Source of the DNA: Promethearchaeota archaeon
GTDB taxonomy: Archaea; Asgardarchaeota; Lokiarchaeia; Sigyniarchaeales; Sigyniarchaeaceae
DNA length: 32,500 nucleotides
Assembly: GCA_016932935.1 (NCBI GenBank)
Contig: JAFGBX010000330.1
Span: 1 to 32,500 of the forward strand
Direction: 5' to 3'
Made by a program: the position numbers and the translations under genes
In this document: one piece after another, positions 1,392-30,746 of the stretch
Numbering within the stretch: position 1 is the first letter of the stretch
Layout of the letters: each line of letters opens with the position of its first letter
Notes under the pieces: generated by a model
The model's database searches: none
Told to the model about the DNA's origin: nothing
Seen by the model: the letters and a program-made list of their open reading frames with translations, nothing else

Positions 1392-1521
1392 AGTCACAAG
1401 GAGTCACATCTTTGATTTGTCAGTACCATTCCATTGATATGGAAATCGGTCAAGAAGGCTTGATATGACCCATTAGATCCATCAGTCACACTTATCTGCA
1501 ACCCATTCTGTGTCAGTCACA
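1392..1521 (+). promoter_or_regulatory. Repeated AGTCACA motifs upstream of the inositol-phosphate synthase operon
   Basis: Four exact copies of AGTCACA lie at 1392, 1402, 1484 and 1515; the last runs into the A of the ATG at 1521. Spacings of 10, 82 and 31 bp are close to whole helical turns, as expected for sites bound on one face of the DNA. The first encoded protein carries an N-terminal HTH, so autoregulation is possible. This is an inference from motif clustering. Confidence 0.4.
1429..1444. promoter_or_regulatory. Dyad TTCCAT-TGAT-ATGGAA
   Basis: A perfect inverted repeat with 6-bp arms and a 4-bp spacer sits about 80 bp before the first synthase gene, between the second and third AGTCACA motifs. 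It is the size of an operator half-site pair for a dimeric regulator. No cognate factor can be named. Confidence 0.35.
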
Positions 1522-2720
1522 TGGTGAAGACTACGCCCGATGCGGACGTCATCGCTTACCTCGAATCGCACACCTACCAGGAGACCATGGACTACTTCAA
1601 GATAAGCCGCATGACCATCGCACGCATCAAGAAGCGAAACGCATCCCAACGGAAGAGTGATTACATGCCAGAAAAGATCCAGCTCGCGATCGTGGGGCTT
1701 GGAAATGCCGCGTCGGCGGTCATCCAGGGCATCGAGTACTACAAGAGCGCGAGGAGGCCGACGGGGCTGCTGCGCCCCACCCTCGCCGGCTACCACATCT
1801 CCGACATCCAGGTCGTGGCGGCGTTCGACATCGCCTCGGCCAAGGTCGGCAAGCCGGTGTGGAAGGCCATCAAGGAGAACGAGCTCGCCGTCGTCGCGGA
1901 ACCGCCGGACGACCTCGACGTGCCCGTGCTGATGGGTAACCCGCTCGACGGGTACATAGAGGAGACGATGGACGTCATCAAGCCGGCCAACATCGCGCCG
2001 GTCGACGTCGCCAAGGCGTTGAAGGACAGCAACGCCGAGATCGTGCTCTGCTTGCTCCCTTCCGGTGCTGACGAATCCGTGAAATACTACGCGGAGCAAT
2101 CACTCAAGGCGGGGTGCGCTTTCATCAACGCCACGCCGACGAGCATCGCCACGGACAAGGCCTTCGCGAAGAGGTACGCGGACGCGGGCCTGCCGCTCAT
2201 CGGGGACGACTTGCAGGACCAGTTCGGCGCGACCATCTTGCACAAGCTGATCCTGCAGCAGATGCTCGACCGGGGCGTCGACGTCAAGGAGAGCTACGCG
2301 CTCGACGTTGGCGGCGGGAGCGAGAGCCTGAACACGATCTTCCGCGCCCGCGACGTGAAGCGCGCGATCAAGAGCATGTCGGTCGCGGGGGCGCTCAACA
2401 TCGAGGCCCCCATCGTCGCGGGCACGTCGGACTACGTCGAGCACCTCGGCAACGGCAGGAACTCGATGCTCTGGATCGTCGGGAACGGGTTCCTCGGTTC
2501 CGAGATCATCATGGACGTGAAAATACAGACCGAAGACGGTTCGAACGGGGGATCGGTGCTCGCGGACGTGATCCGGGCGACCAAGGTCGCGCTGAACCAG
2601 GGCGCGTCCGGTGCCCTCGACGAGATCTCCGCGTACGGCTTCAAGAAGCCGCCCAAGGCGGTCAAGAACCCGGTGGAGGCCAGCAAGAACCTGGCGAGCT
2701 TCATCCTGGGGGTCAAGTGA
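1521..2720 (+). CDS. Inositol-3-phosphate synthase-like protein with N-terminal HTH (paralog 1)
   Basis: A 399-residue member of the myo-inositol-1-phosphate synthase family, which converts glucose-6-phosphate to inositol-1-phosphate with NAD as internal redox cofactor. The Rossmann motif is at 59-65 ('GLGNAAS'), followed by 'VIQGIEYY'. Residues 7-38 are an extra module that reads as a helix-turn-helix ('DVIAYLESHTYQETMDYF', then 'KISRMTIARIKKR'). It has no stop and is in frame, so this is a fusion. An internal ATG at 1666 (residue 49) would give a standard-length enzyme. The DDxKSQ signature of the downstream paralog reads DDLQDQ here, with Gln at 232 in place of Lys, and the LNIGG-DF motif is altered to 'LDVGGGSES'. 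It may therefore have a changed reaction or be a ligand-sensing regulator. First gene of a two-gene operon. Confidence 0.8.
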   Translation: MVKTTPDADVIAYLESHTYQETMDYFKISRMTIARIKKRNASQRKSDYMPEKIQLAIVGLGNAASAVIQGIEYYKSARRPTGLLRPTLAGYHISDIQVVAAFDIASAKVGKPVWKAIKENELAVVAEPPDDLDVPVLMGNPLDGYIEETMDVIKPANIAPVDVAKALKDSNAEIVLCLLPSGADESVKYYAEQSLKAGCAFINATPTSIATDKAFAKRYADAGLPLIGDDLQDQFGATILHKLILQQMLDRGVDVKESYALDVGGGSESLNTIFRARDVKRAIKSMSVAGALNIEAPIVAGTSDYVEHLGNGRNSMLWIVGNGFLGSEIIMDVKIQTEDGSNGGSVLADVIRATKVALNQGASGALDEISAYGFKKPPKAVKNPVEASKNLASFILGVK

Positions 2721-2734
2721 GCGGGGCGAGGAGA

Positions 2735-3955
2735 ATGGGAAAGAAAGCACAAACACCGGCAAAGGGCATCGACAAAATCGCCGAGCGCTCCGAGGTGTCG
2801 CTCGGGGAACTGAAGGCCGTCGGCGCCGAGGCGGGGGATCACAAGGAGATCCGCATCGCGATCGCGGGCCTGGGGAACTGCGCGTCGGCACTCGCCCAGG
2901 GGATCGAGTACTACCGCGACATCAAGGAGGAGGACATGTACATCAACGGGCTCATGAACCCGAGCGTCGGCGGGTACTTGCCGAAGCACATGAAGATCGT
3001 CGCCGCGTTCGAGGTGAACGCGCTCAAGATCGGCAAGGACGTCGCCGAGGCCATCTATTGCGACCCCATCACGACCCCGCACTTCGTGCCGCCCGAGAAG
3101 TACCCGAGGACGGGCACGGTCGTGCAAGCGGGCCCCGTCCTCGACGGCGTAGCGCCCCACATGCGCGAGAGGTTCCACGTCTACGAGGACGGTGATCCCA
3201 AGGTCAAGCCGTGCGACGTCGTGCAGGTGCTCAAGGACGCCAAAGCCGAGATCCTGGTGAACTACTGCCCCGTGGGCTCGTTCAAGGCGGCACGGTTCTA
3301 CGCACAAGCTGCCCTCGACGCGGGCTGCGGGTTCATCAACTGCATCCCCGAGTTCATCGTGAGCGAGCGAGTGGCCGGTGACAAGGACTGGGTCGCCGAG
3401 TTCAAGGCGAGGGGGCTGCCGTGCGCGGGCGACGACATCAAGTCGCAGGTCGGCGCGACCATCATGCACCGCATGCTCGCCAAGTTATTCCTCGACCGCG
3501 GGGTTATCGTCAAGGACACCTACCAGCTCAACATCGGTGGTGACACGGACTTCGAGAACATGAAGATGGAGAGCCGCCTCGTGACCAAGCGGAAGTCGAA
3601 GACCTCCGCGGTGACGAGCGTGCTCCCCTACGAGACGAAGTGCCGGATCGGCCCTTCCGACTTCGTGCCGTTCTTGCTGGGCAAGAAGATCTGCTACATC
3701 CGGATGAACGGCGTGACCTTCGGCGGGGTGCCACTGGAGGTCGACGTGAAGATGCGCGTGGAGGACGCGCCGAACTCCGCGGGCGTCGTCTTCGACATCA
3801 TCCGCGTCATGAAGCTGGCGCTCAACCGCAAGCTGTCCGGCCGGCTGGACTCGATCGCCTCGTTCTCCTTCAAGCACCCGCCGATACAGCCGCCTTCCGA
3901 CGTGATCGCCAAGCAGTGGGTCGCCGAGTTCATCGAGGGGAAGCGGGAGAGGTAG
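2735..3955 (+). CDS. Inositol-3-phosphate synthase (paralog 2, canonical)
   Basis: A 406-residue enzyme. The NAD-binding motif 'GLGNCAS' is at 45-51, followed by 'ALAQGIEYY'. The signature 'GDDIKSQVGATIMHR' (Lys 236) and 'LNIGGDTDFENM' plus 'KRKSKTSAVTS' closely resemble actinobacterial and archaeal Ino1, including the lysine cluster expected at the active site. It should make inositol-1-phosphate for archaeal phosphatidylinositol-type ether lipids or compatible solutes. The ATG at 2735 follows a GA-rich stretch (2728-2733) and lies 14 nt after the stop of paralog 1, so the two form an operon. The frame is open far upstream, but that part overlaps paralog 1 and is not protein-like. The first ~35 residues, before the Rossmann fold, are a charged extension with no recognised domain. 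Confidence 0.9.
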   Translation: MGKKAQTPAKGIDKIAERSEVSLGELKAVGAEAGDHKEIRIAIAGLGNCASALAQGIEYYRDIKEEDMYINGLMNPSVGGYLPKHMKIVAAFEVNALKIGKDVAEAIYCDPITTPHFVPPEKYPRTGTVVQAGPVLDGVAPHMRERFHVYEDGDPKVKPCDVVQVLKDAKAEILVNYCPVGSFKAARFYAQAALDAGCGFINCIPEFIVSERVAGDKDWVAEFKARGLPCAGDDIKSQVGATIMHRMLAKLFLDRGVIVKDTYQLNIGGDTDFENMKMESRLVTKRKSKTSAVTSVLPYETKCRIGPSDFVPFLLGKKICYIRMNGVTFGGVPLEVDVKMRVEDAPNSAGVVFDIIRVMKLALNRKLSGRLDSIASFSFKHPPIQPPSDVIAKQWVAEFIEGKRER

Positions 3956-15652: not shown

Positions 15653-16085
15653 ATGGGTCTGGTCCCTCGGCTAGCCCCCTCCTCCGGGCAGCCCTCACGT
15701 GATCGGGGAAGGAGGGGTGGTGGTCCTGGTGGGCTTTTCGGGGCAACAGCACTTGGAGAGTCTTTCTACTGGTCATCCCAGAACCGCTACGGCCGGGTCA
15801 TGCCCTACCGGTTCGACGCGTCCGGATCCACGTGGGAGGAGACCTACCGGTACAGCGCCGAGTACGAGGTCGAGGGGGGGCACGTCGTGGCGCTCTGGGT
15901 CACGAGCGCGTGGGCGGCGTGGTGGACGGACGACGACCCGGACCGGCGCGACGTCCCGCAACTGCCGCTCGCCGCCCTGCCCGCCAGCATCGGCGACCTC
16001 GTGCACCTGCGGAAGCTGTTCCTCGGTGGGAACGCCCTCGCCGCCTTGCCCGCCAGCATCGGCAACCTCGTGCACCTGGAGGAGG
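15653..16085 (+). pseudogene. Truncated leucine-rich-repeat protein gene
   Basis: The translation contains a GC-rich LRR segment: 'WEETYRYSAEYEVEGGHVVA', then 'ALPASIGDLVHLRKLFLGGN' and a second repeat 'ALAALPASIGNLVHLEEV'. These are about 1.5-2 copies of the 23-residue 'L-x-ALPASIG-L-HLxxLxLxxN' unit common in archaeal and eukaryotic-like LRR proteins. The frame upstream of about 15756 is not protein-like (Gly/Arg-rich), and the repeats stop abruptly at a 29-bp duplication where transposase sequence begins. The gene is therefore broken on the right and perhaps on the left as well. A start at ATG 15800 would leave a fragment of about 95 residues. Confidence 0.6.
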
Positions 16086-16142
16086 TCGCCCACGAAGAGA
16101 CGGATGTGGGCAGCTCGCCCACGAAGAGACGGATGTGGGCAG
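16086..16142 (+). repeat. 29-bp tandem duplication at the LRR-transposase junction
   Basis: 28 bases at 16086-16113 recur exactly at 16115-16142 (period 29). The unit begins TCGCCCACGAAGAGACGGAT and encodes 'SPTKRRMWA' of the transposase in a different frame in each copy. Because 29 is not a multiple of three, the duplication fuses the LRR frame to the transposase frame. Confidence 0.85.
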
Positions 16143-16591
16143 AACGTGGACATCCACCTATTATCAGGAGTCCCGGTGGTCACAAGCACCTGAACATGAT
16201 GGGCGCGGTGGATCCTGCAGGCGGTGAAGTGGTGAGCGCGTTCGTGGAGGAGATGAATGCACGAGTCTACATCAAGTTCTTGTGTCGCGTTCTTTGGAGG
16301 TACAAGCCTGCCAAGAAGATCTACATCATCACGGATAACGCGAAGATACATCACGCGATCATCGTCAATAATTTCCTAGCAAGCATCAACCACAAGATAG
16401 AGCTTCTCTACATACCACCATATTCACCGGAATTAAACCCGATGGAACAAGTCTGGAAATACATGCGAGAAAGCGTGACACACAACACATTTTATCCTTT
16501 ATTTCAAGACTTGAAAGATACATTACGCCAGTTCTTTGAAAATCTGAAAATTCGGAATGATGAGGTGCGATCACGATGCAGTTTTTATTAA
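16115..16591 (+). pseudogene. IS630-family transposase, N-terminally truncated (DDE_3 3' part)
   Basis: From 'SPTKRRMWAERGHPP' onward the frame is the C-terminal half of an IS630/Tc1-mariner-type transposase. 'KKIYIITDNAKIHHA' carries the second catalytic Asp. 'LLYIPPYSPELNPMEQVWKYM' carries the diagnostic PYSPELNP motif and the third acidic residue, Glu. The N-terminal HTH domain and the first catalytic Asp are missing, so it cannot be active alone. Composition becomes AT-rich along this segment, like the region to its right. It ends 15 bp before the end of the convergent LRR gene. I could not define terminal inverted repeats or a TA duplication. Confidence 0.8.
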
Positions 16592-16606: not shown

Positions 16607-17515
16607 TCACGAATCCCGGTTTTTCGGGCTTGTCTGTCGCTCGACCATGCGCTTGGCTTCTTGCCTCAATTCTTCCCATCGGCTCAAGATTTCCGCATCG
16701 ACATAAATATTGAGCCGCCCTCTAGCAAATGGCGACAATGAATGGTGGGAAATCGTGAACCCCCGGCGCTCGCTAAGCTGGCGGGCAGTAATATATTCGT
16801 CCATATCGTCCTTGTATCCGTCGGCGTACAGCTCGGCGCAGCGCTCCAGGTTCCCGCGAATTTCCCAATACAAGAAATTAATCAACTTACCATCGCTCCA
16901 GTCCACACTTGCCACGAGCGCGGGATCTTCTTGCGGCCCGAAGGCGAGGATGAATTCCGCCTCCTCCTTTGTCACATCTTTGATAGGATTACCAGACACG
17001 TCGATGTAACACTTCTCGTGTCGCAGAATTTCGGGGAGCACTGGCACCCGGGTCAATTTATTCCCGTCCAGCATAAGATTACACAATGCCGGCACGCCTT
17101 CAAGCACCGGGAAGCTGGTAATATTGTTTCCAGATATATCTATTGTTTGCAAATGCTTCAGCCCGGAAAAGGTATTGGCTCGTATCAAATCGATTCGATT
17201 GTGCATCGCGCTCAATTTCTCTAGCATTTTCAAGTGTTCCACCCCTTCAAGAGAGGTCAAGATATTATCTGGGATTGACAAGTGACGCAAATTAACGAGA
17301 TGTTCGATGCCATCCAGCGAAGCAATGTTATTCATCGGAACTATAAGACTGGTAAGCTTTGGATACGATTCCAGTCCTTGAATCTCCCGGAGCGATGATA
17401 TCCCTTTTTGAATCAGTCTTAATTCAAATCCATCTTGCCCCAAATCATCTCGGTATCCGATTAATCTGATCGACTCCCCGCGCACGCTCACCGATTCCTC
17501 ACAATGCTCATTCAC
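16607..17515 (-). CDS. LRR protein with C-terminal HTH-like segment, candidate immunity protein
   Basis: A 302-residue protein. Residues ~35-175 hold six or seven leucine-rich repeats ('LTSLIVPMNNIASLDGIEHL', 'LRHLSIPDNILTSLEGVEHL', 'LQTIDISGNNITSFPVLEG' and others). Beyond them an alpha-helical region ends in 'YITARQLSERRGFTISHHSL', which could be a winged or plain helix-turn-helix. No signal peptide or membrane segment, so it is cytosolic. The GTG start at 17515 overlaps the TGA of the giant gene as GTGA, so translation is probably coupled. Composition is AT-rich like the 3' third of the giant gene and unlike the rest of the window. Position, coupling and shared composition make it a candidate immunity or chaperone partner of the giant protein's C-terminal module; that role is inference. 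Confidence 0.75.
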   Translation of the reverse strand: MNEHCEESVSVRGESIRLIGYRDDLGQDGFELRLIQKGISSLREIQGLESYPKLTSLIVPMNNIASLDGIEHLVNLRHLSIPDNILTSLEGVEHLKMLEKLSAMHNRIDLIRANTFSGLKHLQTIDISGNNITSFPVLEGVPALCNLMLDGNKLTRVPVLPEILRHEKCYIDVSGNPIKDVTKEEAEFILAFGPQEDPALVASVDWSDGKLINFLYWEIRGNLERCAELYADGYKDDMDEYITARQLSERRGFTISHHSLSPFARGRLNIYVDAEILSRWEELRQEAKRMVERQTSPKNRDS

Positions 17516-20500
17516 TTCAAATTCGCCTTCTCAAGTAGCTCATCGAAAGTCGCGTAGCACTTTCTGCTTACGACATCGAAGAATGGCTTCTCTGAGCCGA
17601 ATCGATATTCTATTTTAACATATCCTACACTTGGATTGATGGAAAGTATCGATACAATTATTCCGTTTCGTTTTGCTGTAACTGTGGCAATCCCCGGGAT
17701 CGTCAATCCCGCATCAGACGCCGGTATGACGAATCCTTCGATGAACTCGCGTAACCGCTGCAAGTGAACCTCCTCGACGTAGTTTTCGGCTTCCTGGTAT
17801 TCGAGCTGCATTGCGATGCTACCTGCTTTTGTTATCGATGAGAACGAATACCTCCCCGTGATACAATTCAGCTGTCCACTCACCACGTGCCCGGTCGGCA
17901 CCCCTGCTTCATTCAACAAGCTCAAGGTGAAAGACATTCGCCCTTCCGAAGTCGTCAACGCCGTCACGGCGAATCGCTGCTTGTTGTAATGCGTCAAATG
18001 CTTGAAAAACTGCACCATGGCATCCGTCACCTGAAAGACGCTCGCAAATTCGCCTAGTCGGCTCCACACTCCACCAGCGCCTTGCTCATATATGATAGTC
18101 AATCCCGATGCCTTGTTCACGATCACCCGATATTGCAACGAATCTAGTATGTTCGTGAGCCGGGCGTCTCCGATAGCAATTTTAAGCCGATCAGCGACGA
18201 ATTGCTTGAAATTAATAGTTAGATCGGTTCTATAATCATCGGCTGTCTCTATGATTGACGTGTGGCGCGTGAAACTTGCATATCCATCGAACAATGACAC
18301 GAGCGCCGATATGCCGATGCCCGAGAATAACCCATCTATACCCGTATAATCCTTCCCAAACATGAACCCCGAGCCACCAGGCTGTACACCCGAATCCGTG
18401 AATTTTCTGCAAGTAGCCTTGTATTCTGTCAGATCGACAATCATGGCCAGCGTGTTCACGAGCTGTCGTACCTGAAGCGCCCCGGCTACCGAATCGATGT
18501 CAATCTCCCTTCCACGGAGCCCTAAAGGGATGAATGCATCATCAGAAACCGTGAACAGCATCGCTGTTTTCCCCTCACTGTTCGTGCCGACACGTAATGA
18601 GAAACCCTCAAGATCATTCGCGATCGACAATGGCTTTAATAATCCAAGCGGATCCCCGAAGATCCTCATAAGAATCGCTTTGATCTCGGCAGGTGATTTT
18701 GCTGAATAATCGACGATCTTGTTCTGGTATATATCTGGAATACGATCGGATCCGGAGAATTGCACTCGATAGGTCCCATCTATTGTATTAAAAGCGATTT
18801 TAATAGTTGGGCCGAAGCGATTAATGTCAAAAAATGTCACACAACCCCTTTCGCCTTCTCCGATGAAAAGTCTCATTTCATTTATATTTTCGAGCCGCAT
18901 ATTAGGATAACATAAGTTCCTGACCATGGCGGGTATACCAGATGCCTTCCAAGTCACTTGTTCACTCGGGGATAGTTCCGGCCGCTCTGCGTTTGGGTTC
19001 ATCGCATTAGCGAACCCCCACGTCCAATCCTCCCCATGAGCGAGCGTTTCACCCGCGGTCAATCCATGCCAATGCTCGGTGAACATTAATTGCCAGACTT
19101 GGTTTATGGTATTTACTGCCTGAATGTTACTAATCCAATTCTCGAGTGAGTTTCCATACGTTTCTACTAATCTTGATAGTGTTATAGACCCATCTATGTG
19201 CTCGCCCGATTCCGCTTGCATTCCGAATGCGAGGAATTGCATCCTGCTAGGCATATCGTCCCATGCAGGATTCGGCTTCCCATTGATAATTGGATTCGCA
19301 AGGATGCTCGCGTCTGTCTCGCCTGTTGATCGTCCAAGGGAATAATAATTGCTCGAGATAAACCTAGAATAATCGTATGCATCGTAGTGACCCTCGGGCT
19401 TTACTCCAAAACGGCCTCCCAGCTTCTGATCTTGCGCCACGCTTGCTAGGAATGCAGCGAGATCGTCGATCGTCGCGCCAGCCAGTGGAGTCCATGAATA
19501 GATTTTCCCTTTCTCTTGAACGTTAATCGTTTCACCCATTGCTGCTTTGTATAACAATTCGACGATTTCACTATTCTGCGTTTTTGTATAAGCAATGAGT
19601 ACGATCTGTCGTAATTGAATTACGTTTGTCCTTTCATTCCCATTTCTTGCTACAAATTGGATGCCCGCGTATTTTTGTTTCATATATTCCTTGAACGACG
19701 AAATATCCAAGCCTTCAGGAACCGTCAATGCAATCGTTCGGAATCGCGGGTTCACCCCCACGCCGTCATAGAGATAACGCTGCACGGTTCTCTCGAAATC
19801 TTTTCGATAATCTTTATACTGCATTGAGCCATCTTCGGAAATAATCGTCGCCGGTTCCAGCACATCGTTTGCTTTATCATCGACAATCACGAATGGCCCG
19901 AGCCAGGTTATATCTTGCTTCATAAAGCCGGGCGGGATTATTTTACTATTGGGATCCTCGAGCAAGATGAAAATATTATCGAGATTGTGGAAGGATCTCT
20001 TTCCCTCATGCTGCCAGGACATATCACTCCTCCCGCTGAAGAAGGGAATCTTGCCTTCAAGTGCTAGTTTCCGGAATTGGTTCAGATAAGCCCACTTTCC
20101 GCCACCTTGTCCATATACAAATTCTTGGAAATCCTCGAGCCCTTGAGATCCCTCATGGAAGCCTCCTTTTGCGCTCGTCTCTGAGGAAGGTACGAATATA
20201 TCGTTTATTGCTTTAGTAAAAGCCACTTGTTGAGCAACAAACGCCGTCTGAGATGGCGAACCAGGCGTATCAAACGCGTGGTTAAAATTCTTAACTATGT
20301 CAAGCATTAAATCACGGAGGTTCTTGTATGTGGCCGCAGAACGCTGCATCGCCATTAAGAAACCCACCGCTTTCATAAAATTTGTCATCAAGGGCGCCGT
20401 ACCCATAAAAACATTATTACGCTCCTCTGCTTCTTGATTTCTTTCTCGGGTAGTGCCTGGGTAATTGTCGAGTATTTCCTTAGCTACTTTCACAATCCGC

Positions 20501-23500
20501 GGATCACTATTTTTTGAGAGAACCGTGATCCGGCACATATCATATAATTGGTAAAATAGGCTGACGAATTCAATCACCAGATCTTCACTATTGGCATTCT
20601 CTCGTATCTTCGCTTTCCACTTCGCAAATTTCGCAGCGACCTCCGAATCAGGGGGATTGTTGGTCAATTCTTTGAATGCAGGCAAGTCACGAAATTGCGA
20701 ATACGTTAAATCTAAAATACGATTCAGCGAATTCAATGGATGATGGCTTTTCAACTCAGAGAAGGATTCTATGTTCGGATCCACTGTAGCCATGGCTGCG
20801 AGTGCTGGTCCCACTTGATTTACGAATTCAGTCGAAGCAGCGCCCATATTCCGCATTATCCTAAGATCCGCAGAACTCAATTGTGACCTCAATTGATTAT
20901 TGATAGAAAATACTGCGTGTCCTGCTGAATCCGTCACGATGGACACCTTATGGACTTTAATAATATGGTCACTAAATCTTTTCATCATGGTCTTCTGATT
21001 CGCTTGATTGAATTTCGCTCCGCACAAAGCACAATCAGGATCACTGACCACCGCGTCTCCTCTAAGTGCTAAAAATTCACTCGCCCTCATCTGTCTGATA
21101 GCATCCCATCCCCAAACCGTACCGTCCTTCAGTCTTACTGCGATGTTGATGAAAGCATCTTTAGAGACGCGGAAGGCGTCCTTCACCCACTGCTGCTCCA
21201 GGATCTCCTCCATGGTGAGCGTCGGGTTGGTGATCGCCGCGGTGCGGACGATCTCGAACATCGTGAGGGCGACCATCTGGACGACCGAGTCTTGCTTCAT
21301 GTCGAGGCCGGGGAACTGCTCGGCGGTCCACTTCTGGAACTCGGGGTTGGGCGCCTTGATGTTCGCGTCGGCGGCGGCGACCTTGCCTCGCAGCACGTCG
21401 AAGAAGGCCTTGACCTGGTCCCGTGCCGCCGTGATCTGCTTGATGACCCCGTCCACGCGCCGGAGATCCGCGGCGATACCTGCTTGAATGCCATCGACAT
21501 GCGTCGAGAGGCGGCACGTCGGATTCATCGTGTATCGAGTGTTGGTGGCAGTATCGATAACAGTTCGCTGCTTCTCCAAGAGCTGATCACGTTCGGCTTC
21601 CGCCTTCACGAGTTCCTGGTCGATCCGCTTGTGCATGGCGTCGAACTCCTGGTAGGTGCGGGCACGGGCGCGATAATCGCCGAAATTCTCGACGGTCGAG
21701 ACGCCAAACCAGATCGCTTCGCCGAGCGATTCGGCCAGCCAATCGGCACAGACATCATCGAGCAACTGGGAGGTCCCTTCCTCGAGGATCAACTCCTCGA
21801 ACACCTCCTTGGTGACGTCGACGACGCCCTTCAGGAAGCCCTTGATGCCGCTGCCGTACCACTGCGCGAGCGGGGTCCCGGCGACCGAGATGCCGGTCAG
21901 GATCCCCTTGGACGCGAGCACGGTGATGACCACCTGGACGGCGCTGAGGGCATACATCCAGTTCTGCACCTCGGCTTGCTTCGCCTCCATCGCCTCGTTC
22001 AGGATGCTCTCGTACCTGCCAGACATGCACGAGATCTCGTAGAACAAGTGGTTGGCAGGGTCAGTGTCCGTGATCTCGTGGGAAGCGATGGCGGGTGCAT
22101 CTTGCCGGGTGTACGCGGTCATGGCGGTGATGTCGGAAACCTCGACGTTGGGCACGACCTCGCGCTGCTCGAGGACGAGATTGCCCGACAGCCACGAGTC
22201 CGTGACGAAGGCGATGCCGGACGTGTCGGTGAACGTGGCGTTGGCAGCGAGCACGTCGCGGACGCGCGTGGCCAGGTACGCGGATTCGGTGCCGGTGATG
22301 GTTGCCGATGGATCGATCGCGACCTTGATGAACCTGTCTGCATCGACGCCGGACGGGGGCAAGGCATCCACCGGCGTGCCCGTGTCGAACCACGCACACC
22401 ACGCCTCGCCGCTGGAGCCATGAAGCATGATGTAATCCCCGGTCGAGATGGCGGCCCGCGTGGTGAACTCGATGGTCGTCGTGGTCGTGCCTGGAACGAA
22501 GGCGGCCGGCCGGCCGTGGTTCGAGAAATCGACGAGCCCGTAGCGCTGGAACGAGAAGCCGATGTTGCCGAGCCCGTCGATGGTCGGGACCAGGTTCGTC
22601 GCGAGCCCGGACGTCGAGTGCATGGCGTATGCCTCGGCATCCTCGGTCGTCGACCGCATCCTCGCGGTGAGCGAGCGCGTGTCGATCGTGACGGGGGACG
22701 TGGCCGCGATGGAGACCGTGAGGGTCACGTACGAGCTCGCGCCGGGGGTGATCGTCGTGATGGTCGATGTCGCCGACACGCCGGGGAGATCCTCGACGGC
22801 AAGGGCGATTGTCAGTTGATCGTATACAAGGCCTACTGTTGATCCCCCGGTGATGTCATACCCGACAGTATTGCACCGGACCTTGATCCTGAGGGAGAAC
22901 GACTCGCCGGCGCCATGCAACCCGTCACCGTTTATCGCCTCGATGCTCTCGATGTAACTGTCTAGCGGCTCGAACCAGTAACAGTCGCTGCTATCATACC
23001 ACCCGTATTTCTGCAAGGGGCGTATCCTGAGGGGATAGATACCGTCATGAAACGCATCGAACACGCCATGGCGCCAAGCGATCGATCCGGAAGACTTGCC
23101 GAAATTGTCGTAATATGCCTTGTCCTCGACCCAACCCGGATCGGAGACAAAGAGACGTGACGGGATGTACCGGGTATTGTAATCGACGAATTGGTAGAAC
23201 GGTAACTTGAATGGCACCGCGAATGCCTTGGAGCCAGAGCCTGGCGCGCTGCTCACCAGGTCATCGTAACCGCTCGCCACGCTGCTTCCGTAGACGTACG
23301 GGGATTCACCCGTGCCGCTGTCGGTACGCAAGAGCTCCCCGCCCGCCTCCTTTGTGGAATCGAAGTATGTCTGTATCCCGCTCCGCACGGCACCCCAGAT
23401 GATGAAGCATGCGGTGCTGATGGCGAACCCGACGAGCGCGCCTATCAAGGTACCCCATGGCCCCCCGGCCGACCCGATGGCGGCGCCGGCTGCCGCGCCG

Positions 23501-26500
23501 GCCCACGCGCTGAAGACCATGATGCCGATACCGACCGCGAGTTCCGCCACCCACATGGCCCAGAACGCGGCGTCGAACTGCTCGACGAACCATCGTTGCG
23601 CCGTCTCGTACGCCAGGCCGGTGATGTATTCCAGCTTGCTGTATGGGGCATCCGCCATCCAATAGGTCGGGAAGAATTGATCGCGCGTGTCCGGGGTGAC
23701 TTCCAGCTTGCCGGAACCATCGTCGATGAAGAACCCGATGGCCTTCGGGAGATGGACGAACGCGCCATCCGCATCCTCGTAGAATGCCATTTCGCCCCAG
23801 TAGGTCTCCGTGGTGAACACGAAGCCGATATCCCGCACCCCGTCGCCATTTGAATCGTAGAAGTAGATCGTCCCTTGCCCCACGCGCGCATCAGGGAAGA
23901 CGGTAAGACGGGGATCGAGTAGAACGTCCGTCGACTCGATGATGAGCACGTCGGCCGTGATCTCCTTCTCTCCATCTACCCCGAGCAAGAGGAACGTGCG
24001 CCTTGCCTCGAGATCGCACGTTTCATCCGTGGAGGCAATGCCTCCTGCCCGCCGGGTCACCCGGTGGGTCTCATACGTCCAGAGCCCGTTCGCGGCAATG
24101 TCGGCGCTGACGTGATCGGCCAGCACGGCGTGTTCTTTCAACTGTGCATCGTTCATGGCACTCGTGTTGGCATTGATCAAGTCGGGGCGGGGCGCGTCGT
24201 CCCAGAGATCGAGATGCTCCTCGATGTAATCGTCCAGCGAGCCGTCCCCGTCGAGCTCGTATGCGTCGGAATATCCACGCGTGATGCGCGATCTGGCGAA
24301 GCTCGGCAGCGTCGTCTCCCACTTGCCAGGCACCCATGTGCCGGTGGCACCGGATCCAGGCACCCAATAACGCGAGAGATTCGCGACCATAGTCTTGCTC
24401 GTCGCAATGGTAAACTCCGAGTGCTTCCAGTCCAGAAGCCCGTCCTCGTCCTGATCGATGCTCGTGTCGATGTACGTCACGTTCCGCAAGGCGACCATTC
24501 CATCGAGCACGTAGGGCTTGGCAGACCGGCCTTGAACGACACGTGCCTCGAAGATGCCGTCACCGGACATGTCGTATGCGATCACGTCGTTCCATCCATC
24601 CAGCAAGATGTTCCCGCCCGCGTCGATGATGGCATCCCCGCCGCTGTCGGTGTATTGGATGACCGAGTCGTAGGTGCCCGAGTAATCGAGATCGAAGAAG
24701 CGCGTCGCGATCCAATCATCCCGCCCTGGTGATGGCGTGAACCCGGCCGTGGTCCACGCGCTCGTGTCCGCGGGGAACGATCCAGGCGAGCCAAGCTGGT
24801 ACGCGAGGTTCTGGAAGGTGTTGGCCTGGGTGTCGAACGACGAGGAGAACCAGTTTCTCAACACGCTGCCGCTCGTCAGGTTCTGGCGCATGATCTGCAC
24901 CGACCGCAGCTCCAGGCTCGTCGAGCTGCTCGCGGGCATGGCGATCTGCAATCCCGTGAACCCGCCCGAGAACTGCACCGTGCCTGCCTTAACCCCAGCC
25001 CAGGACAGCGTCGCATATCCGTGCGCCGCGTCGAACGGGGCGATCGGGACCGGGATGCTCGGCGGTGTTCCGGATGCGACTTGCAAGCTCATGGTCGCCG
25101 CGTTCGACTCGTGCTCGAGGAACACCCCGGCGATCCCGACGACCGCGGTCATGTTGTTCACCGCCGCCTTCTCCTTCCACGTGACGGTGAAAGTGATGGA
25201 GCCGAGGTTGGTACCCGCGGGGATAGCGAGCGGGTGCACTGCATCCAACATACCCCCGCTCCCGAACTGGTCGACAAACGGGCTTCCAACAGCCGTCCCG
25301 GTCGCATCCTTGAACGTGGCCGTGATGGACTGGATGTTCGAGACGTTCCCCATCGCGACGGCCCGGTACCCGAAGAGCTTGTACGCGCTCCAATCGATCG
25401 AGCCCGTGAGGGATGGGTTGATGTGTTTGGCGATCTGCTCTGTGAAGCTCATGGTGGCGCTCATGGTTGCTTCCGGCCGGGCAATGCCGAGATCCATCAT
25501 GATATCACGATCCGGATCGATCTTGCCCTCGTACACGTCCACGTCGATATTGCCACCCGTCAAGAAATCCTCGATGCGGGACGGGGCACTCGTATCGGTC
25601 ATGTTCACGCAGAAACCATCACCGCTCTGCACGGTGGACCTGCCGCGGCCGAAGGTGATGTTAGCCCGAGTCGTCAAAGCCGCATCGCTGTATCCCTCGA
25701 GCACGACCGTGAAGCCGTACCAGCCGTCGTCCTCGTCGACGGCGCCGTCGCCGGCACCTTCCGCCAGCTCGTTGTACGCGGGATGGAGCTTGTTGTTCGG
25801 CCACCAGCTGCCCGCCAGGGGGTTCCTCGCGGGGTTCCCGCCCACGGGGCCGTCCCACGTGAGCTCGATGCGTGTCTTGCCGACCTGGTTGGCCTGGATG
25901 CCCGACGACAGGAAGTCGGGGCACGCCAGGATCTTCTCCATGATGTCGCGCGTGAGGGTCTCCGCGTCTTGCCATCCGAAGCCGACGCTGATCTCGTACA
26001 AGTTACCGGCCTGCGACGTGGTGCCGTCGCCCCCGATCCTGATCTTCCATTCCCTCACGCCGTTCGTGTCATAAACGCTGAACCACATGTCGTGCAGGCC
26101 GTCGAACGAGCCGAACGTCATGCTCGGCACGTCGACGACGACCGCCGGCCTCTCGTAGTGGCCGACATCACCCGCGGGGAACATGTTCGCGATGGACATC
26201 GGTAAAAAGCCACTCTTCCACTGCCCTGCCGTGAAGGTCGATTGCCCGAGGACCTGTGTAGGATCCGGCACGTAGTAGACAGGCATGCTCTCGGTCAAGT
26301 CGACGGTGCTGGCGCGCGGCGGGGATCGAGCCACGTTCTTGAGCACGGTGACGCGCACCTTCTGGAGCGGGTCGATCTCGGGCACGTGCGTCGCCAATCG
26401 AATGCCGTCGATGCTGGTCTGCATGGTACCGAGCACCTGCCCGGCGGGCTCCTTCGTGGTGATCCATTCGACGTCCTCGGAGTCGAACGAGCTCTGCCCG

Positions 26501-29373
26501 GTCTTGGGATAGAGGATAGCTAAACCCGCGCTCGTCAAGTAATCCTTCGAGATGGCGTACGAGGAACCCGCCGCCACGCGCCAATCGACGACATCGTAGA
26601 CCGGCTTGAAGCAGTACTCGTCGAAGTTCGCGTAATCGTAGCCCTGGTTCGATAGCCATGTTTGGCTGGCTTCAGACGAAGGATCGTACACCTGGACCAG
26701 CTCGTTCCAATCATCGACGACGATGTCCTTCAGGCCAACGGGCTTCCGGTAGGTGAGGTAGACAGAATCGACGACATCCTTGTCCGGCCCGACTGCCGTG
26801 TTCAGCGTGAGGGACGCGGCGAAGCTGCGGGCAATGGTGCTCGCCGTCCCGCTGGTCGCCGTGGCGAGGTCGAGATATGACGAGTGCTGCGTGTAGACGG
26901 CGGGTGTGATGACCGCGGTGATGCGGCGCTCGAATGCTGGTTTTTCGACCAGGATCGAAGATCCGTCGCCATCCGCCACTTGCTGGTAGGTCTTGATGAC
27001 GCCCTTGGTGATGGACGGCTCGGTGCGGCTGCGGATGTGCTCCTGGAACTTGAAGCGCAAGAAGAGGTCATCCGCATCCCGGTCGTCCACGACCCCGTCC
27101 CCGTTGATGTCTGTCGTCGCGCGCGGGATCTCGTACCAGGTCTGGTCTTGCTCGCCAGCGGGCGGGTCGCCCGTCTCGCCGAATGCGCCGAGGATAGCAG
27201 GCCATGAACCACCGGTGAGGAAGGGATCATCCGCGCGATAGTTCATCACGTTGAGCACGGAGGCGATCGGTCCCGACACCGTGAACTTGAGATCATTGGC
27301 GAAGGTGGTTGTTTGATACCCGTCGTATCGCTGCAAACCCATGTTGTCCATGATGTCGTTGCAGTAAAGGTTCATGAAACTGTTGCTCCAGACCTTCTGC
27401 TTCATCGAGGTGCTAAGGCCCGTGGAAACAAAAACCACGTTCTCCCACCCTGTCATCTTTGGCACCATCCAATGCGCCCGCGCCACGGACGTGCACGTGC
27501 CCACCGGCCGCCAAGTAAAGCTGATGTCGACGCTCGTCCCTTCGAGATCCGCTGGACTGCCACCGCCAGGTGCAGCATATGTCCAGGTACCCGCGCTGGC
27601 GGGGGACGAGAGCACGTCGATCGCGAACGGGATGACTTGCTGGTAATTCGTCGTGCCGGCGGTCGGGTTCACGGTCAAGCTCCACGTGTACCGCTTGGAT
27701 GGCAGGGCGGCGCTCTTGATCTCGATGCTGGCCACGAAATCCTGGTTCGGGGCGCTCGTTGCGATGAATGAACCGGACAAATATGCACGGTACGGCAAGT
27801 AGAGGCCTGGATACGACACGGCGAGGCCGTTCGTTTCGTCGGTCGATGTCGTGCTCGCCACGTCGGCGCGCGTCTGCATCACGATGGATTGATGCACGGT
27901 TTCCGCGATACCACTCACCGTGGTATACGTGCCGGCCCGGGCACCGTCTTGCCAAGATGCGTTCGCGAATTGCCAGCCAGCCATCACCCGCTCCGCGGAA
28001 CCGGATGCTGACAAGTATACCCTTGGCAATATGCTGGTCGGCGTGCCATCAGCGTTGCGGAACACGTTCTTGAACGTGATGGTGGTGTTGTGCGGTGCAA
28101 AATCGTCGGCGACGTCCAAGCTCGAATGTGCCACGACGAGTGCGTCGACGATGACAAATTGGACGGCCGTGAAGGCCATCCGGGTAGCAACGTCGTCGCT
28201 CGTCCACGGGCATCCCGTCACGGGATCCGTTCCGAAGACCGCCGCTCCCGATCCGTCGACGACCTCCACCCCGCCATATTCCTGGTGAGGCACCCAGAGC
28301 CCCGTCGTGACAGTCTCGCGATTGACATCGGGTGACTGCCCTTGCGCCGTGATCTGTGTGTCCAAGGACGTGAACGTGACGGTCTGCCCGGCTTCCTTCA
28401 AGTTCATGACGAAGGATCCATTGTCACCGGTATCGCCGTTGTACATGTTGGTCGCGAGCGCCGTGTTCGCCGGAAATTCCGTGATCCACGTCCAGTAATC
28501 CTTGCTCGACCCGGCCCGCATGGTGGAATCGACCAGGTGGATGTCGAGATAGATCTCCTTGTCGGAATAGTCCGCGATGTCCTTGAATGCGACCTGGATG
28601 TCGATGGGGTACGAGACAAGTTCGGGTATCCCGGTGGTCGGATTCGCTTGCCACCGTTTCCCGTAGATCCAATCGTCTTCTCGTGCGATCACGCTAGAGA
28701 ACGTATCGAGCGGGACCACGAAGTCCTTCCATGCAGTCGCGTCGTCCTCGACGAACACGGTGATCGTCTGCTCGATCTCGCCATCCACGATGATGTCGAC
28801 CTCCGTGCCATCGTTCGTCGGGAAACCACCAACCACTTCAGAATCTTCATCAACAAGCTCCTCGGAAGTATCATCAAATTCCACGGCCGGATCGATCGTC
28901 GTCACGTCGATCGCATCGAGGATGATCTCCCCGGTCGCCGCGGCTTCGGCCACGAGCTTGAACGACGTGCAGTTGTAAAGGGTAGTTCCCGCCTTGGTGG
29001 TGAACGGGACCGAACCCGCCTTGTACGTGGTCTCGACGCTCGTCGTTGAATCGATCGCTGTGATGATGTATTCCGTGCCAGAGAGAACCGTGATCGTGAC
29101 GTGGTATTCTCGTCCCGTGACGGGGGTAAACAAGGGGGAGTAGGTGTTGTCCCCCGTTCGGGTAGACAGGGTCGTACCATCGAATTTCATCATGAACGGT
29201 GCATCGAGGCTCGGCACCTTGAGCGGGGCGATGTAGAGGGCACCCCCCGAGAACGGCGTCGTCAGGGTGAAGGCGAAGCTCGCCTCGTACGAGTACCACG
29301 GCGTCATCTGGCCAAACAGATGCTCGATGGCGGCTTGCGCCGTGGTTCCAGTCTTGCTAAACTTGCCCGCCAT
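17512..29373 (-). CDS. Giant multidomain protein (3953 aa), candidate polymorphic toxin
   Basis: Unrecognised as a whole. Residues 1-~1930 are beta-rich and Thr/Ser/Asp-rich, like surface proteins, with calcium-loop motifs at ~755 ('DINGDGVVDDRD', dockerin-like), 1601, 1640, 1706 and 1840. Residues ~1934-1998 form a Gly/Ala-rich hydrophobic hairpin ('GIGIMVFSAWAGAAAGAAIG'). Another beta domain follows, then a hydrophobic helix at ~2469-2498, a 'VTKEVFEELILEEGTSQLL' segment resembling pre-toxin regions, and coiled coils (~2575-2670). Near residue 2735 base composition drops sharply. A C2H2-like zinc finger (Cys2781, Cys2784, His2803, His2808) opens an AT-rich C-terminal module of ~1220 residues matching no family I know. 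No signal peptide is visible. I start at ATG 29373 because a TATA box and operator precede it; TTG 29433 is the longest option. The downstream LRR gene overlaps by 4 bp. Confidence 0.75.
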   Translation of the reverse strand: MAGKFSKTGTTAQAAIEHLFGQMTPWYSYEASFAFTLTTPFSGGALYIAPLKVPSLDAPFMMKFDGTTLSTRTGDNTYSPLFTPVTGREYHVTITVLSGTEYIITAIDSTTSVETTYKAGSVPFTTKAGTTLYNCTSFKLVAEAAATGEIILDAIDVTTIDPAVEFDDTSEELVDEDSEVVGGFPTNDGTEVDIIVDGEIEQTITVFVEDDATAWKDFVVPLDTFSSVIAREDDWIYGKRWQANPTTGIPELVSYPIDIQVAFKDIADYSDKEIYLDIHLVDSTMRAGSSKDYWTWITEFPANTALATNMYNGDTGDNGSFVMNLKEAGQTVTFTSLDTQITAQGQSPDVNRETVTTGLWVPHQEYGGVEVVDGSGAAVFGTDPVTGCPWTSDDVATRMAFTAVQFVIVDALVVAHSSLDVADDFAPHNTTITFKNVFRNADGTPTSILPRVYLSASGSAERVMAGWQFANASWQDGARAGTYTTVSGIAETVHQSIVMQTRADVASTTSTDETNGLAVSYPGLYLPYRAYLSGSFIATSAPNQDFVASIEIKSAALPSKRYTWSLTVNPTAGTTNYQQVIPFAIDVLSSPASAGTWTYAAPGGGSPADLEGTSVDISFTWRPVGTCTSVARAHWMVPKMTGWENVVFVSTGLSTSMKQKVWSNSFMNLYCNDIMDNMGLQRYDGYQTTTFANDLKFTVSGPIASVLNVMNYRADDPFLTGGSWPAILGAFGETGDPPAGEQDQTWYEIPRATTDINGDGVVDDRDADDLFLRFKFQEHIRSRTEPSITKGVIKTYQQVADGDGSSILVEKPAFERRITAVITPAVYTQHSSYLDLATATSGTASTIARSFAASLTLNTAVGPDKDVVDSVYLTYRKPVGLKDIVVDDWNELVQVYDPSSEASQTWLSNQGYDYANFDEYCFKPVYDVVDWRVAAGSSYAISKDYLTSAGLAILYPKTGQSSFDSEDVEWITTKEPAGQVLGTMQTSIDGIRLATHVPEIDPLQKVRVTVLKNVARSPPRASTVDLTESMPVYYVPDPTQVLGQSTFTAGQWKSGFLPMSIANMFPAGDVGHYERPAVVVDVPSMTFGSFDGLHDMWFSVYDTNGVREWKIRIGGDGTTSQAGNLYEISVGFGWQDAETLTRDIMEKILACPDFLSSGIQANQVGKTRIELTWDGPVGGNPARNPLAGSWWPNNKLHPAYNELAEGAGDGAVDEDDGWYGFTVVLEGYSDAALTTRANITFGRGRSTVQSGDGFCVNMTDTSAPSRIEDFLTGGNIDVDVYEGKIDPDRDIMMDLGIARPEATMSATMSFTEQIAKHINPSLTGSIDWSAYKLFGYRAVAMGNVSNIQSITATFKDATGTAVGSPFVDQFGSGGMLDAVHPLAIPAGTNLGSITFTVTWKEKAAVNNMTAVVGIAGVFLEHESNAATMSLQVASGTPPSIPVPIAPFDAAHGYATLSWAGVKAGTVQFSGGFTGLQIAMPASSSTSLELRSVQIMRQNLTSGSVLRNWFSSSFDTQANTFQNLAYQLGSPGSFPADTSAWTTAGFTPSPGRDDWIATRFFDLDYSGTYDSVIQYTDSGGDAIIDAGGNILLDGWNDVIAYDMSGDGIFEARVVQGRSAKPYVLDGMVALRNVTYIDTSIDQDEDGLLDWKHSEFTIATSKTMVANLSRYWVPGSGATGTWVPGKWETTLPSFARSRITRGYSDAYELDGDGSLDDYIEEHLDLWDDAPRPDLINANTSAMNDAQLKEHAVLADHVSADIAANGLWTYETHRVTRRAGGIASTDETCDLEARRTFLLLGVDGEKEITADVLIIESTDVLLDPRLTVFPDARVGQGTIYFYDSNGDGVRDIGFVFTTETYWGEMAFYEDADGAFVHLPKAIGFFIDDGSGKLEVTPDTRDQFFPTYWMADAPYSKLEYITGLAYETAQRWFVEQFDAAFWAMWVAELAVGIGIMVFSAWAGAAAGAAIGSAGGPWGTLIGALVGFAISTACFIIWGAVRSGIQTYFDSTKEAGGELLRTDSGTGESPYVYGSSVASGYDDLVSSAPGSGSKAFAVPFKLPFYQFVDYNTRYIPSRLFVSDPGWVEDKAYYDNFGKSSGSIAWRHGVFDAFHDGIYPLRIRPLQKYGWYDSSDCYWFEPLDSYIESIEAINGDGLHGAGESFSLRIKVRCNTVGYDITGGSTVGLVYDQLTIALAVEDLPGVSATSTITTITPGASSYVTLTVSIAATSPVTIDTRSLTARMRSTTEDAEAYAMHSTSGLATNLVPTIDGLGNIGFSFQRYGLVDFSNHGRPAAFVPGTTTTTIEFTTRAAISTGDYIMLHGSSGEAWCAWFDTGTPVDALPPSGVDADRFIKVAIDPSATITGTESAYLATRVRDVLAANATFTDTSGIAFVTDSWLSGNLVLEQREVVPNVEVSDITAMTAYTRQDAPAIASHEITDTDPANHLFYEISCMSGRYESILNEAMEAKQAEVQNWMYALSAVQVVITVLASKGILTGISVAGTPLAQWYGSGIKGFLKGVVDVTKEVFEELILEEGTSQLLDDVCADWLAESLGEAIWFGVSTVENFGDYRARARTYQEFDAMHKRIDQELVKAEAERDQLLEKQRTVIDTATNTRYTMNPTCRLSTHVDGIQAGIAADLRRVDGVIKQITAARDQVKAFFDVLRGKVAAADANIKAPNPEFQKWTAEQFPGLDMKQDSVVQMVALTMFEIVRTAAITNPTLTMEEILEQQWVKDAFRVSKDAFINIAVRLKDGTVWGWDAIRQMRASEFLALRGDAVVSDPDCALCGAKFNQANQKTMMKRFSDHIIKVHKVSIVTDSAGHAVFSINNQLRSQLSSADLRIMRNMGAASTEFVNQVGPALAAMATVDPNIESFSELKSHHPLNSLNRILDLTYSQFRDLPAFKELTNNPPDSEVAAKFAKWKAKIRENANSEDLVIEFVSLFYQLYDMCRITVLSKNSDPRIVKVAKEILDNYPGTTRERNQEAEERNNVFMGTAPLMTNFMKAVGFLMAMQRSAATYKNLRDLMLDIVKNFNHAFDTPGSPSQTAFVAQQVAFTKAINDIFVPSSETSAKGGFHEGSQGLEDFQEFVYGQGGGKWAYLNQFRKLALEGKIPFFSGRSDMSWQHEGKRSFHNLDNIFILLEDPNSKIIPPGFMKQDITWLGPFVIVDDKANDVLEPATIISEDGSMQYKDYRKDFERTVQRYLYDGVGVNPRFRTIALTVPEGLDISSFKEYMKQKYAGIQFVARNGNERTNVIQLRQIVLIAYTKTQNSEIVELLYKAAMGETINVQEKGKIYSWTPLAGATIDDLAAFLASVAQDQKLGGRFGVKPEGHYDAYDYSRFISSNYYSLGRSTGETDASILANPIINGKPNPAWDDMPSRMQFLAFGMQAESGEHIDGSITLSRLVETYGNSLENWISNIQAVNTINQVWQLMFTEHWHGLTAGETLAHGEDWTWGFANAMNPNAERPELSPSEQVTWKASGIPAMVRNLCYPNMRLENINEMRLFIGEGERGCVTFFDINRFGPTIKIAFNTIDGTYRVQFSGSDRIPDIYQNKIVDYSAKSPAEIKAILMRIFGDPLGLLKPLSIANDLEGFSLRVGTNSEGKTAMLFTVSDDAFIPLGLRGREIDIDSVAGALQVRQLVNTLAMIVDLTEYKATCRKFTDSGVQPGGSGFMFGKDYTGIDGLFSGIGISALVSLFDGYASFTRHTSIIETADDYRTDLTINFKQFVADRLKIAIGDARLTNILDSLQYRVIVNKASGLTIIYEQGAGGVWSRLGEFASVFQVTDAMVQFFKHLTHYNKQRFAVTALTTSEGRMSFTLSLLNEAGVPTGHVVSGQLNCITGRYSFSSITKAGSIAMQLEYQEAENYVEEVHLQRLREFIEGFVIPASDAGLTIPGIATVTAKRNGIIVSILSINPSVGYVKIEYRFGSEKPFFDVVSRKCYATFDELLEKANLK

Positions 29374-29391
29374 GTCGTCGGCGCCCGAGGC

Positions 29392-29411
29392 ATCTTGGCC
29401 TTGGCCAAGAT
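29392..29411. promoter_or_regulatory. 20-bp palindrome between TATA box and start of the giant gene
   Basis: ATCTTGGCCTTGGCCAAGAT has perfect 9-bp arms around TT. For the minus-strand gene it lies directly downstream of the TATA-like box and about 19 nt before ATG 29373, where a repressor would block initiation. It also marks the border between GC-rich and AT-rich DNA. Confidence 0.5.
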
Positions 29412-29421
29412 GATATAAGAA
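29412..29421 (-). promoter_or_regulatory. TATA-like box of the giant gene
   Basis: Read on the minus strand the sequence is TTCTTATATC, close to the archaeal TATA consensus, 39-48 nt before ATG 29373. This supports that start over TTG 29433, which would lie upstream of the box. The same bases could also serve the divergent ATPase gene, at a longer distance. Confidence 0.4.
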
Positions 29422-29545
29422 TCGATGAACCAATCAAGATTCTAGATGAATTAGAAGCCACCTATACAAAGAAGGCATTCTCGAGGATCAAACAGTTTTT
29501 CCTTAACTCCTGGCGAGAAGAGCAGAGCGAGGATCTTGGGCATAC

Positions 29546-29558: not shown

Positions 29559-30746
29559 TTGGATCGACTGCTTTTAACAGGCTTGTTCGATAAATATGAC
29601 TTCGACATATCTATCCAAGGGCGAGAAGTCGTCTTCTTGTATGGCATCAACGGCATCGGCAAGACGACCATCTTCAATATCATCTATTGTTTCTGCCTCG
29701 GAGATTTCTTGGCAATCAAGAGAATTCGCTTTAAGGAGGCCATGTTCTTTCTTTCTGATTGGAAAGGAGTGTCGTCCTCGACGGTCGCCATCCACAACGG
29801 AGCCGACTCATTGGAGATCTTAATAGCTGGTGGCACTTTCATTCTGAAGGAGAGCGAGAAGGTAAGGGGGGAAAAGATTATGCTCTTGGCAGCCACCTAC
29901 CCGCTTATCCAGGCGTCGTCGACATATCAGCAATTACTTGGGGTTATCAGAAAGAGTATGGGACGCTCATATTTTGCAGGGGATATTCCGCTTGAAAAGT
30001 TTTGCGAGGTCTTCATTCCGCTCATCGCGAGCCTCCCCATCTATTATATTTCGACTCAACGATTAAGAGTCGACAAAAACCAGATCATCAGCTATTTTAA
30101 AAGTCTCGAGAGCGAGGACGAAAAGCGAAAGAAGAGATTTAGAAAAAGCATAGTGTCTCGACTTAGCGATCGAGACAGAATTACTTCACAACACTCGAAT
30201 TACTCCAGAACGTTGCAGCAGGAGTTAAAAGGGATCGAAGATAGAGACGCGTTTTTGTCGGGACTCTCATTCGAGGATCTGAAAACCGAAATTCTGAGTA
30301 AGGAGATCACCGACCGAGCTAGACAGCTCTTAACAGCATCACGCTCGAAGGAATTCCAGACCCCGAAGAAAGATCTTTTCTACCGACTAGTAGATGAGTT
30401 CCTCGAGGATAAAAGGATCGTGGATGACCTTCGTGAGGGCTTTATAGCGGAAAGCTTCGAAAGAGTACGCATCCCTCTAGACAAACTTTCATCAGGGGAG
30501 AAGAATCTAATCGTAATATTGTACGACTTGATCTTTCTCACGAATCCCCATACGACCATCTTGATCGATGAGCCGGAAATATCGATGCACGTCGGATGGC
30601 AAATCCGTTTCGCTGATACACTGCTCCAAATCTCGAAGACAGGTAGACGCACCTTTCTCATCGCCACCCACTCCCCCCAAATAGTACATGGAAGGAGGCA
30701 TCTCTGCATCACGGCATCCAAATACAGCAGCAGCGAGAAACCATGA
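29559..30746 (+). CDS. ariA: ABC/AAA15-type ATPase, AriA-like subunit of a PARIS-type defence system
   Basis: A 395-residue SMC/ABC-like ATPase. Walker A 'GINGIGKTT' is at 29-37, right after a short strand. The middle is helical and charged, a short coiled-coil arm. The ABC signature 'LSSGEKN' is at 310-316, Walker B 'ILIDEPE' at 334-340 and the switch His371 in 'ATHSP'. Length and layout match AriA of PARIS, where the ATPase forms a scaffold that senses a phage protein and releases AriB. The neighbour, overlapping by ATGA, is a DUF4435/TOPRIM protein, which is the PARIS pairing. DNA is AT-rich relative to both flanks, suggesting horizontal acquisition. Other OLD-like or ABC-ATPase/TOPRIM defence pairs are the alternative. 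Start is TTG with a GAGGT site. Confidence 0.8.
   Translation: MDRLLLTGLFDKYDFDISIQGREVVFLYGINGIGKTTIFNIIYCFCLGDFLAIKRIRFKEAMFFLSDWKGVSSSTVAIHNGADSLEILIAGGTFILKESEKVRGEKIMLLAATYPLIQASSTYQQLLGVIRKSMGRSYFAGDIPLEKFCEVFIPLIASLPIYYISTQRLRVDKNQIISYFKSLESEDEKRKKRFRKSIVSRLSDRDRITSQHSNYSRTLQQELKGIEDRDAFLSGLSFEDLKTEILSKEITDRARQLLTASRSKEFQTPKKDLFYRLVDEFLEDKRIVDDLREGFIAESFERVRIPLDKLSSGEKNLIVILYDLIFLTNPHTTILIDEPEISMHVGWQIRFADTLLQISKTGRRTFLIATHSPQIVHGRRHLCITASKYSSSEKP

Follow-up and report, generated by a model that had tools for sequence, protein, structure and literature searches.

An HTH-MIPS fusion protein in a Lokiarchaeia-type Asgard archaeon as a probable autoregulator of its own promoter

Can a homologue of a metabolic enzyme also regulate its own gene? 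The question is raised by a reading frame in which a helix-turn-helix (HTH) module precedes an inositol-phosphate synthase (MIPS) homologue, located in a 32,500-nucleotide stretch of DNA (the window) from a Lokiarchaeia-type Asgard archaeon whose sister is Candidatus Sigynarchaeum springense (94% identity; locus L032). In the trigger enzymes BirA, PutA, and NadR, a DNA-binding domain is fused to the enzyme. The protein described here resembles them in joining an enzyme-like domain to a DNA-binding one in a single chain and would likewise act on its own promoter or on that of its pathway, but as a fusion it is not homologous to them, and it differs in enzyme family, in the type of HTH, and in the domain of life. 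The literature searched gave no account of an HTH-MIPS fusion, absence there being weak evidence. The features of the locus are listed in Table 1.

Table 1. Features of the fusion locus in window coordinates
Feature	Coordinates	Strand	Basis
Distal operator-like pair of AGTCAC elements (1392, 1402), starts 10 bp apart	1392..1408	+	kept in L032, genome-unique
AGTCAC element adjoining TATA-like box	1484..1489	+	motif, L032 comparison
TATA-like box CTTATCTG at -30; CTTATATG in L032	1491..1498	+	consensus match only
AGTCAC element directly before ATG 1521	1515..1520	+	motif, L032 comparison
HTH module, aa 1-48; helices aa 7-14, 19-26, 30-47; recognition helix SRMTIARIKKRN	1521..1665	+	Pfam, conservation, profile, AF2
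HTH-MIPS fusion protein, divergent MIPS-like clade, 399 aa	1521..2720	+	domain, homology, tree, structure evidence
Paralogue 2, canonical-type MIPS homologue without HTH, 14-bp gap after fusion gene	2735..3955	+	homology, tree

Other genes of the window include a single minus-strand ORF of 3973 aa (17512-29433) with no Pfam match at 1e-3, adjoined by a leucine-rich-repeat ORF (16607-17515), and a DDE_3 transposase-like ORF (15653-16591, +). An AAA_15/AAA_21 ATPase gene overlapping a weakly DUF4435-like gene (29559-31654, +) forms a pair that we take to resemble the two-gene ATPase-effector pairs of defence systems.

The first-pass annotation had read an HTH in frame with the enzyme homologue, and this arrangement holds: the frame is open from ATG 1521 through the Inos-1-P_synth domain, residues 1-48 form an HTH by structural model and conservation, and the rest is a MIPS homologue. 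In the AF2 model the head folds into three helices, the third ending at residue 43 or 47, with residues 11-40 at a pLDDT of about 90-93 and the turn between helices 2 and 3 that typifies HTH folds in general. Matches of the head to Pfam are sub-threshold, both for HTH_23 (20 bits against a gathering score of 24.6, E 5.9e-4, with the head fragment as query) and for Sigma70_r4, and a Foldseek search of PDB folds with a 52-residue HTH model returned nothing significant, the nonsignificant list consisting mostly of sigma region 4, DeoR, resolvase, and NarL type HTHs. Despite the sub-threshold Pfam scores, the module is judged real from the modelled helices, from its profile E-values (1e-28 to 1e-30 in the seven genomes that also supplied the profile), and from its conservation at seven loci. 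H17-T18-Y19, S29-R30-M31, I33, R35, and K38-R39-N40 are invariant in 7/7 aligned sequences, a one-residue insertion in L034 excepted, and the recognition helix is near-invariant across the seven HTH-bearing metagenome-assembled genomes (MAGs).

From residue 49 onward the protein is a MIPS homologue by PF01658 (E 4.1e-14, above cut-off) and by its match to Mycobacterium tuberculosis Ino1 (phmmer E 2.9e-61). The full-length AF2 model, of moderate quality (mean pLDDT 64), matches MIPS structures, with 1gr0, the M. tuberculosis enzyme, at 2.3e-24 in Foldseek. Fold and sequence over aa 51-397 and three catalytic lysines are shared with Ino1, whereas the HTH head is not, and the mycothiol_INO1 model TIGR03450 is matched at 228 bits against a curated cut-off of 638. 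The NAD fold and the GxGNxAS motif are retained. In Archaeoglobus fulgidus MIPS, K274, K306, K367, N255, and D332 have been reported as important (PMC5614600). With positions counted by hand on alignments to that enzyme, K274, K278, K367, and D332 are kept (as K280, K284, K375, and D339), whereas three others are changed (N255D at D262, D261E at E268, and K306R at R313), so that the EC 5.5.1.4 catalytic set is incomplete. These changes are invariant in 15 aligned clade members, with and without HTH; the altered site is therefore independent of the HTH, and the core function does not require it. On sequence, the substitutions could permit either catalysis or a sensing role. As the MIPS-like active site is uniformly altered, the earlier proposal that the protein senses its own pathway is something we infer rather than observe.

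Two readings of this active site have to be weighed, neither of them judged likely. In the first, a possible but doubtful special case of autoregulation set apart by its view of catalysis, the MIPS-like domain would be a non-catalytic sensor that binds NAD(H) together with an inositol- or hexose-phosphate, serving only as the ligand domain of a transcription factor that controls the neighbouring canonical MIPS. The three catalytic-site positions changed throughout the clade fit this, as does the neighbouring paralogue 2, which keeps a canonical active site and lies adjacent to the fusion gene in the host genome, in L032, and in L009. Against it stand the three catalytic lysines and D332 that remain, the identical site of HTH-less members, which presumably have a non-DNA role, and the unlinked, operator-free paralogue 2 of Harpocratesius and other genomes. 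The second reading, about equally doubtful, is that of an active enzyme of altered specificity, using another cyclitol or sugar phosphate, in which the HTH provides abundance-based negative feedback with no ligand sensing. Strict conservation of the non-canonical site in members with and without HTH, and relatedness to Ari2, a five-membered-cyclitol-phosphate synthase (6k96), speak for such a putative enzyme. Feedback of this kind would also depart from the ligand response found in most known trigger enzymes.

The distribution of the fusion, among sequences that are all MAG-derived, is narrow. A module profile search finds the head fused to a MIPS homologue in 7/228 Asgard genomes, all seven being Lokiarchaeia-type MAGs; outside the Asgard archaea, the search for fusions covered close relatives of the window protein. 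The possibility, raised in the first-pass annotation, that all close homologues lack the module is thereby refuted. In sequence, orthologues without the HTH (L035, L037-L041) are no more distant (67-72%). The HTH-bearing proteins sit in a clade of 18 that is separated from canonical paralogue 2 with 100/100 support, but they are not monophyletic within it (AU p 0.011), and the best tree requires three changes of state. A single origin of the fusion followed by strict descent is accordingly rejected, leaving one gain with two losses, or else several gains or exchanges. Upstream of the HTH-less orthologues, a search for a decayed HTH gave no remnant that convinces: the score of L041 was 19 where its shuffles reached at most 16, the others fell within their own shuffles, and the control scored 145.

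The operator-like repeats noted upstream in the earlier reading are real. AGTCAC occurs at 1392, 1402, 1484, and 1515 (shuffle P = 3e-4), and all four copies lie at the same distance from the ATG in L032 despite diverged surrounding DNA; the last would be near the expected transcription start of a leaderless mRNA. Among 7978 degenerate 6-mers tested, AGTMAC (AGTCAC or AGTAAC) is the only one with at least two copies in 7/7 promoters of HTH-bearing genes (18 copies in these, versus 1 in nine HTH-less orthologues), the motif having been tested on the very promoters that yielded it. A separate observation is how rare it is across the genome. The pattern AGTCACN{3,28}AGTCACA has two matches in the host genome (G000) and one in G001, every one in the promoter of the fusion gene; outside it, neither the 5.1-Mb genome nor the 6.4-Mb sister genome contains paired AGTCAC sites. 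In 12 genomes searched, AGTMACN{12,14}AGTMACA picks out the fusion promoter in G005, G010, G014, and G021, the remaining matches (0-2 per genome) being at the level of a reversed control. Two extra matches in G010 were inspected and fall within long reading frames or at their ends, and pair searches at these spacings gave no convincing further target of a wider regulon. Spacing and orientation differ between lineages, from 10 or 31 bp to the 19 bp between the two AGTMAC copies of L033, L034 (Prometheoarchaeum sp.), L036, and L042, and the L009 promoter has one direct and one inverted copy.

By their sequence and distribution, the AGTMAC repeats are candidate binding sites of the fusion protein. 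It is improbable, although HTH folds can mediate protein contacts, that another regulator binds them and that the HTH serves for structure or interaction or directs the protein to other places: the sites track HTH presence among orthologues, pairs are nearly confined to the fusion promoter, and the same arrangement recurs in a second HTH family.

In this second family, the module profile matches a protein of about 185 aa in nine genomes, the host included (L059, G000:C387:3421-3975), and a reciprocal profile recovers the HTH-MIPS proteins. Its C-terminal part is a Roadblock/LC7 domain (1.1e-11 in L058, 4.3e-5 in L059), L061 matching only the related MAPKK1_Int model below cut-off; members in Lokiarchaeia are L051-L054 and L058-L062. 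The two architectures share the HTH class and a multi-copy upstream repeat but differ in the sensor domain and in the element, which is CTAAYA in the HTH-Roadblock promoters (36 observed versus 3.9 expected) and AGTMAC in those of the fusion. Genome-wide searches for CTAAYACT pairs gave few matches, the pattern being too strict. A single base separates AGTAACA from ACTAACA, and a difference of this size would fit the related recognition helices SRMTIARI and SQMTLARW. The HTH-Roadblock/LC7 family has the appearance of a further autoregulator built on this HTH class. Somewhat short of an even chance is the broader proposal that unrelated sensor domains (MIPS-like Rossmann and Roadblock/LC7) have been combined with this lokiarchaeal HTH class to give one-component autoregulators, each with a related repeat, of which the MIPS version would sense inositol phosphate or another cyclitol phosphate and control archaeal inositol metabolism.

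Between the window sequence and L032 the module differs by about nine synonymous and five nonsynonymous changes (dN/dS ~0.14), and in Harpocratesius repetitus (L042) and in L009 (G006) no ATG, GTG, or TTG separates the HTH from the Rossmann fold, so that there the heads must be translated. The start at ATG 1666 that the first-pass annotation had considered is thus refuted as a general rule, while in the window species a second, shorter product from this codon may accompany the full-length protein. That the head is an annotation artefact, with ATG 1666 (MPEK) the true start and the HTH untranslated, draws on the GTGAT that precedes this Met in the window species, but is so improbable in view of purifying selection, module conservation, and the missing internal starts of L042 and L009 that it is rejected.

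A translated, conserved module and upstream repeats that are specific to HTH-bearing promoters and nearly unique in the genome together favour autoregulation: the protein is probably an autoregulatory enzyme-regulator fusion, acting at the promoter of the fusion gene and, in the host, probably also on the canonical MIPS gene directly downstream. In the scheme that we infer, including specific DNA binding, sign of regulation, ligand, and oligomeric state, the N-terminal HTH would bind the repeated AGTMACA elements, MIPS oligomers would present several HTHs to several sites, and the fusion gene and, in the host genome, the co-transcribed paralogue 2 would be repressed. NAD and/or a sugar-phosphate or inositol-phosphate ligand in the MIPS-like domain would modulate DNA binding, control through the NAD/sugar-phosphate site being plausible. 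Repression is suggested by sites that adjoin the TATA-like box and precede the ATG in the window; one element adjoins the box in L032 as well, whereas the pair lies upstream of it in L036, L042, and L009, a position that fits activation equally well. Paralogue 2 is probably in the same operon and probably co-controlled, given its position directly downstream of the fusion gene here, in L032, and in L009. Control of the unlinked paralogue 2 in trans is rejected, the AGTMAC pair being absent from its promoters (0/4). At one locus, a third MIPS-type paralogue (L040:8487-9599) follows straight after the first two and belongs to another clade, with a DWGGxSDF motif, that is common in f4 genomes.

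The HTH-Roadblock relatives, whose promoters are full of a similar repeat, may be counted in favour of autoregulation. Counted against it are these unlinked promoters without a pair, the altered active site that HTH-less orthologues share, the few independent lineages behind the co-occurrence of HTH and repeat (one independent pair on well-supported branches), and the variable spacing and orientation of the sites, direct repeats being unusual for symmetric oligomers. They are known nonetheless, as for ArdK (PMC9723621), and the linker at aa 44-49, which is of low confidence in the full-length model, could allow binding to direct repeats. In Corynebacteriales, ino1 is regulated by IpsA, a LacI-type protein that responds to inositol (PMC3899939). 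Transcription control of a MIPS gene, as proposed for the fusion, is common to both systems, but IpsA is a separate protein with a palindromic site, whereas here the MIPS homologue carries the head in its own chain.

Characterisation of regulators and operators has barely begun in Asgard archaea, and the fusion offers a protein together with its predicted site and target promoter, all directly testable in vitro. It would tie the control of transcription to the metabolism of inositol phosphates, from which archaea can obtain the headgroups of inositol lipids, and the HTH-Roadblock parallel suggests that such regulators form a small modular class whose DNA repeats are related.
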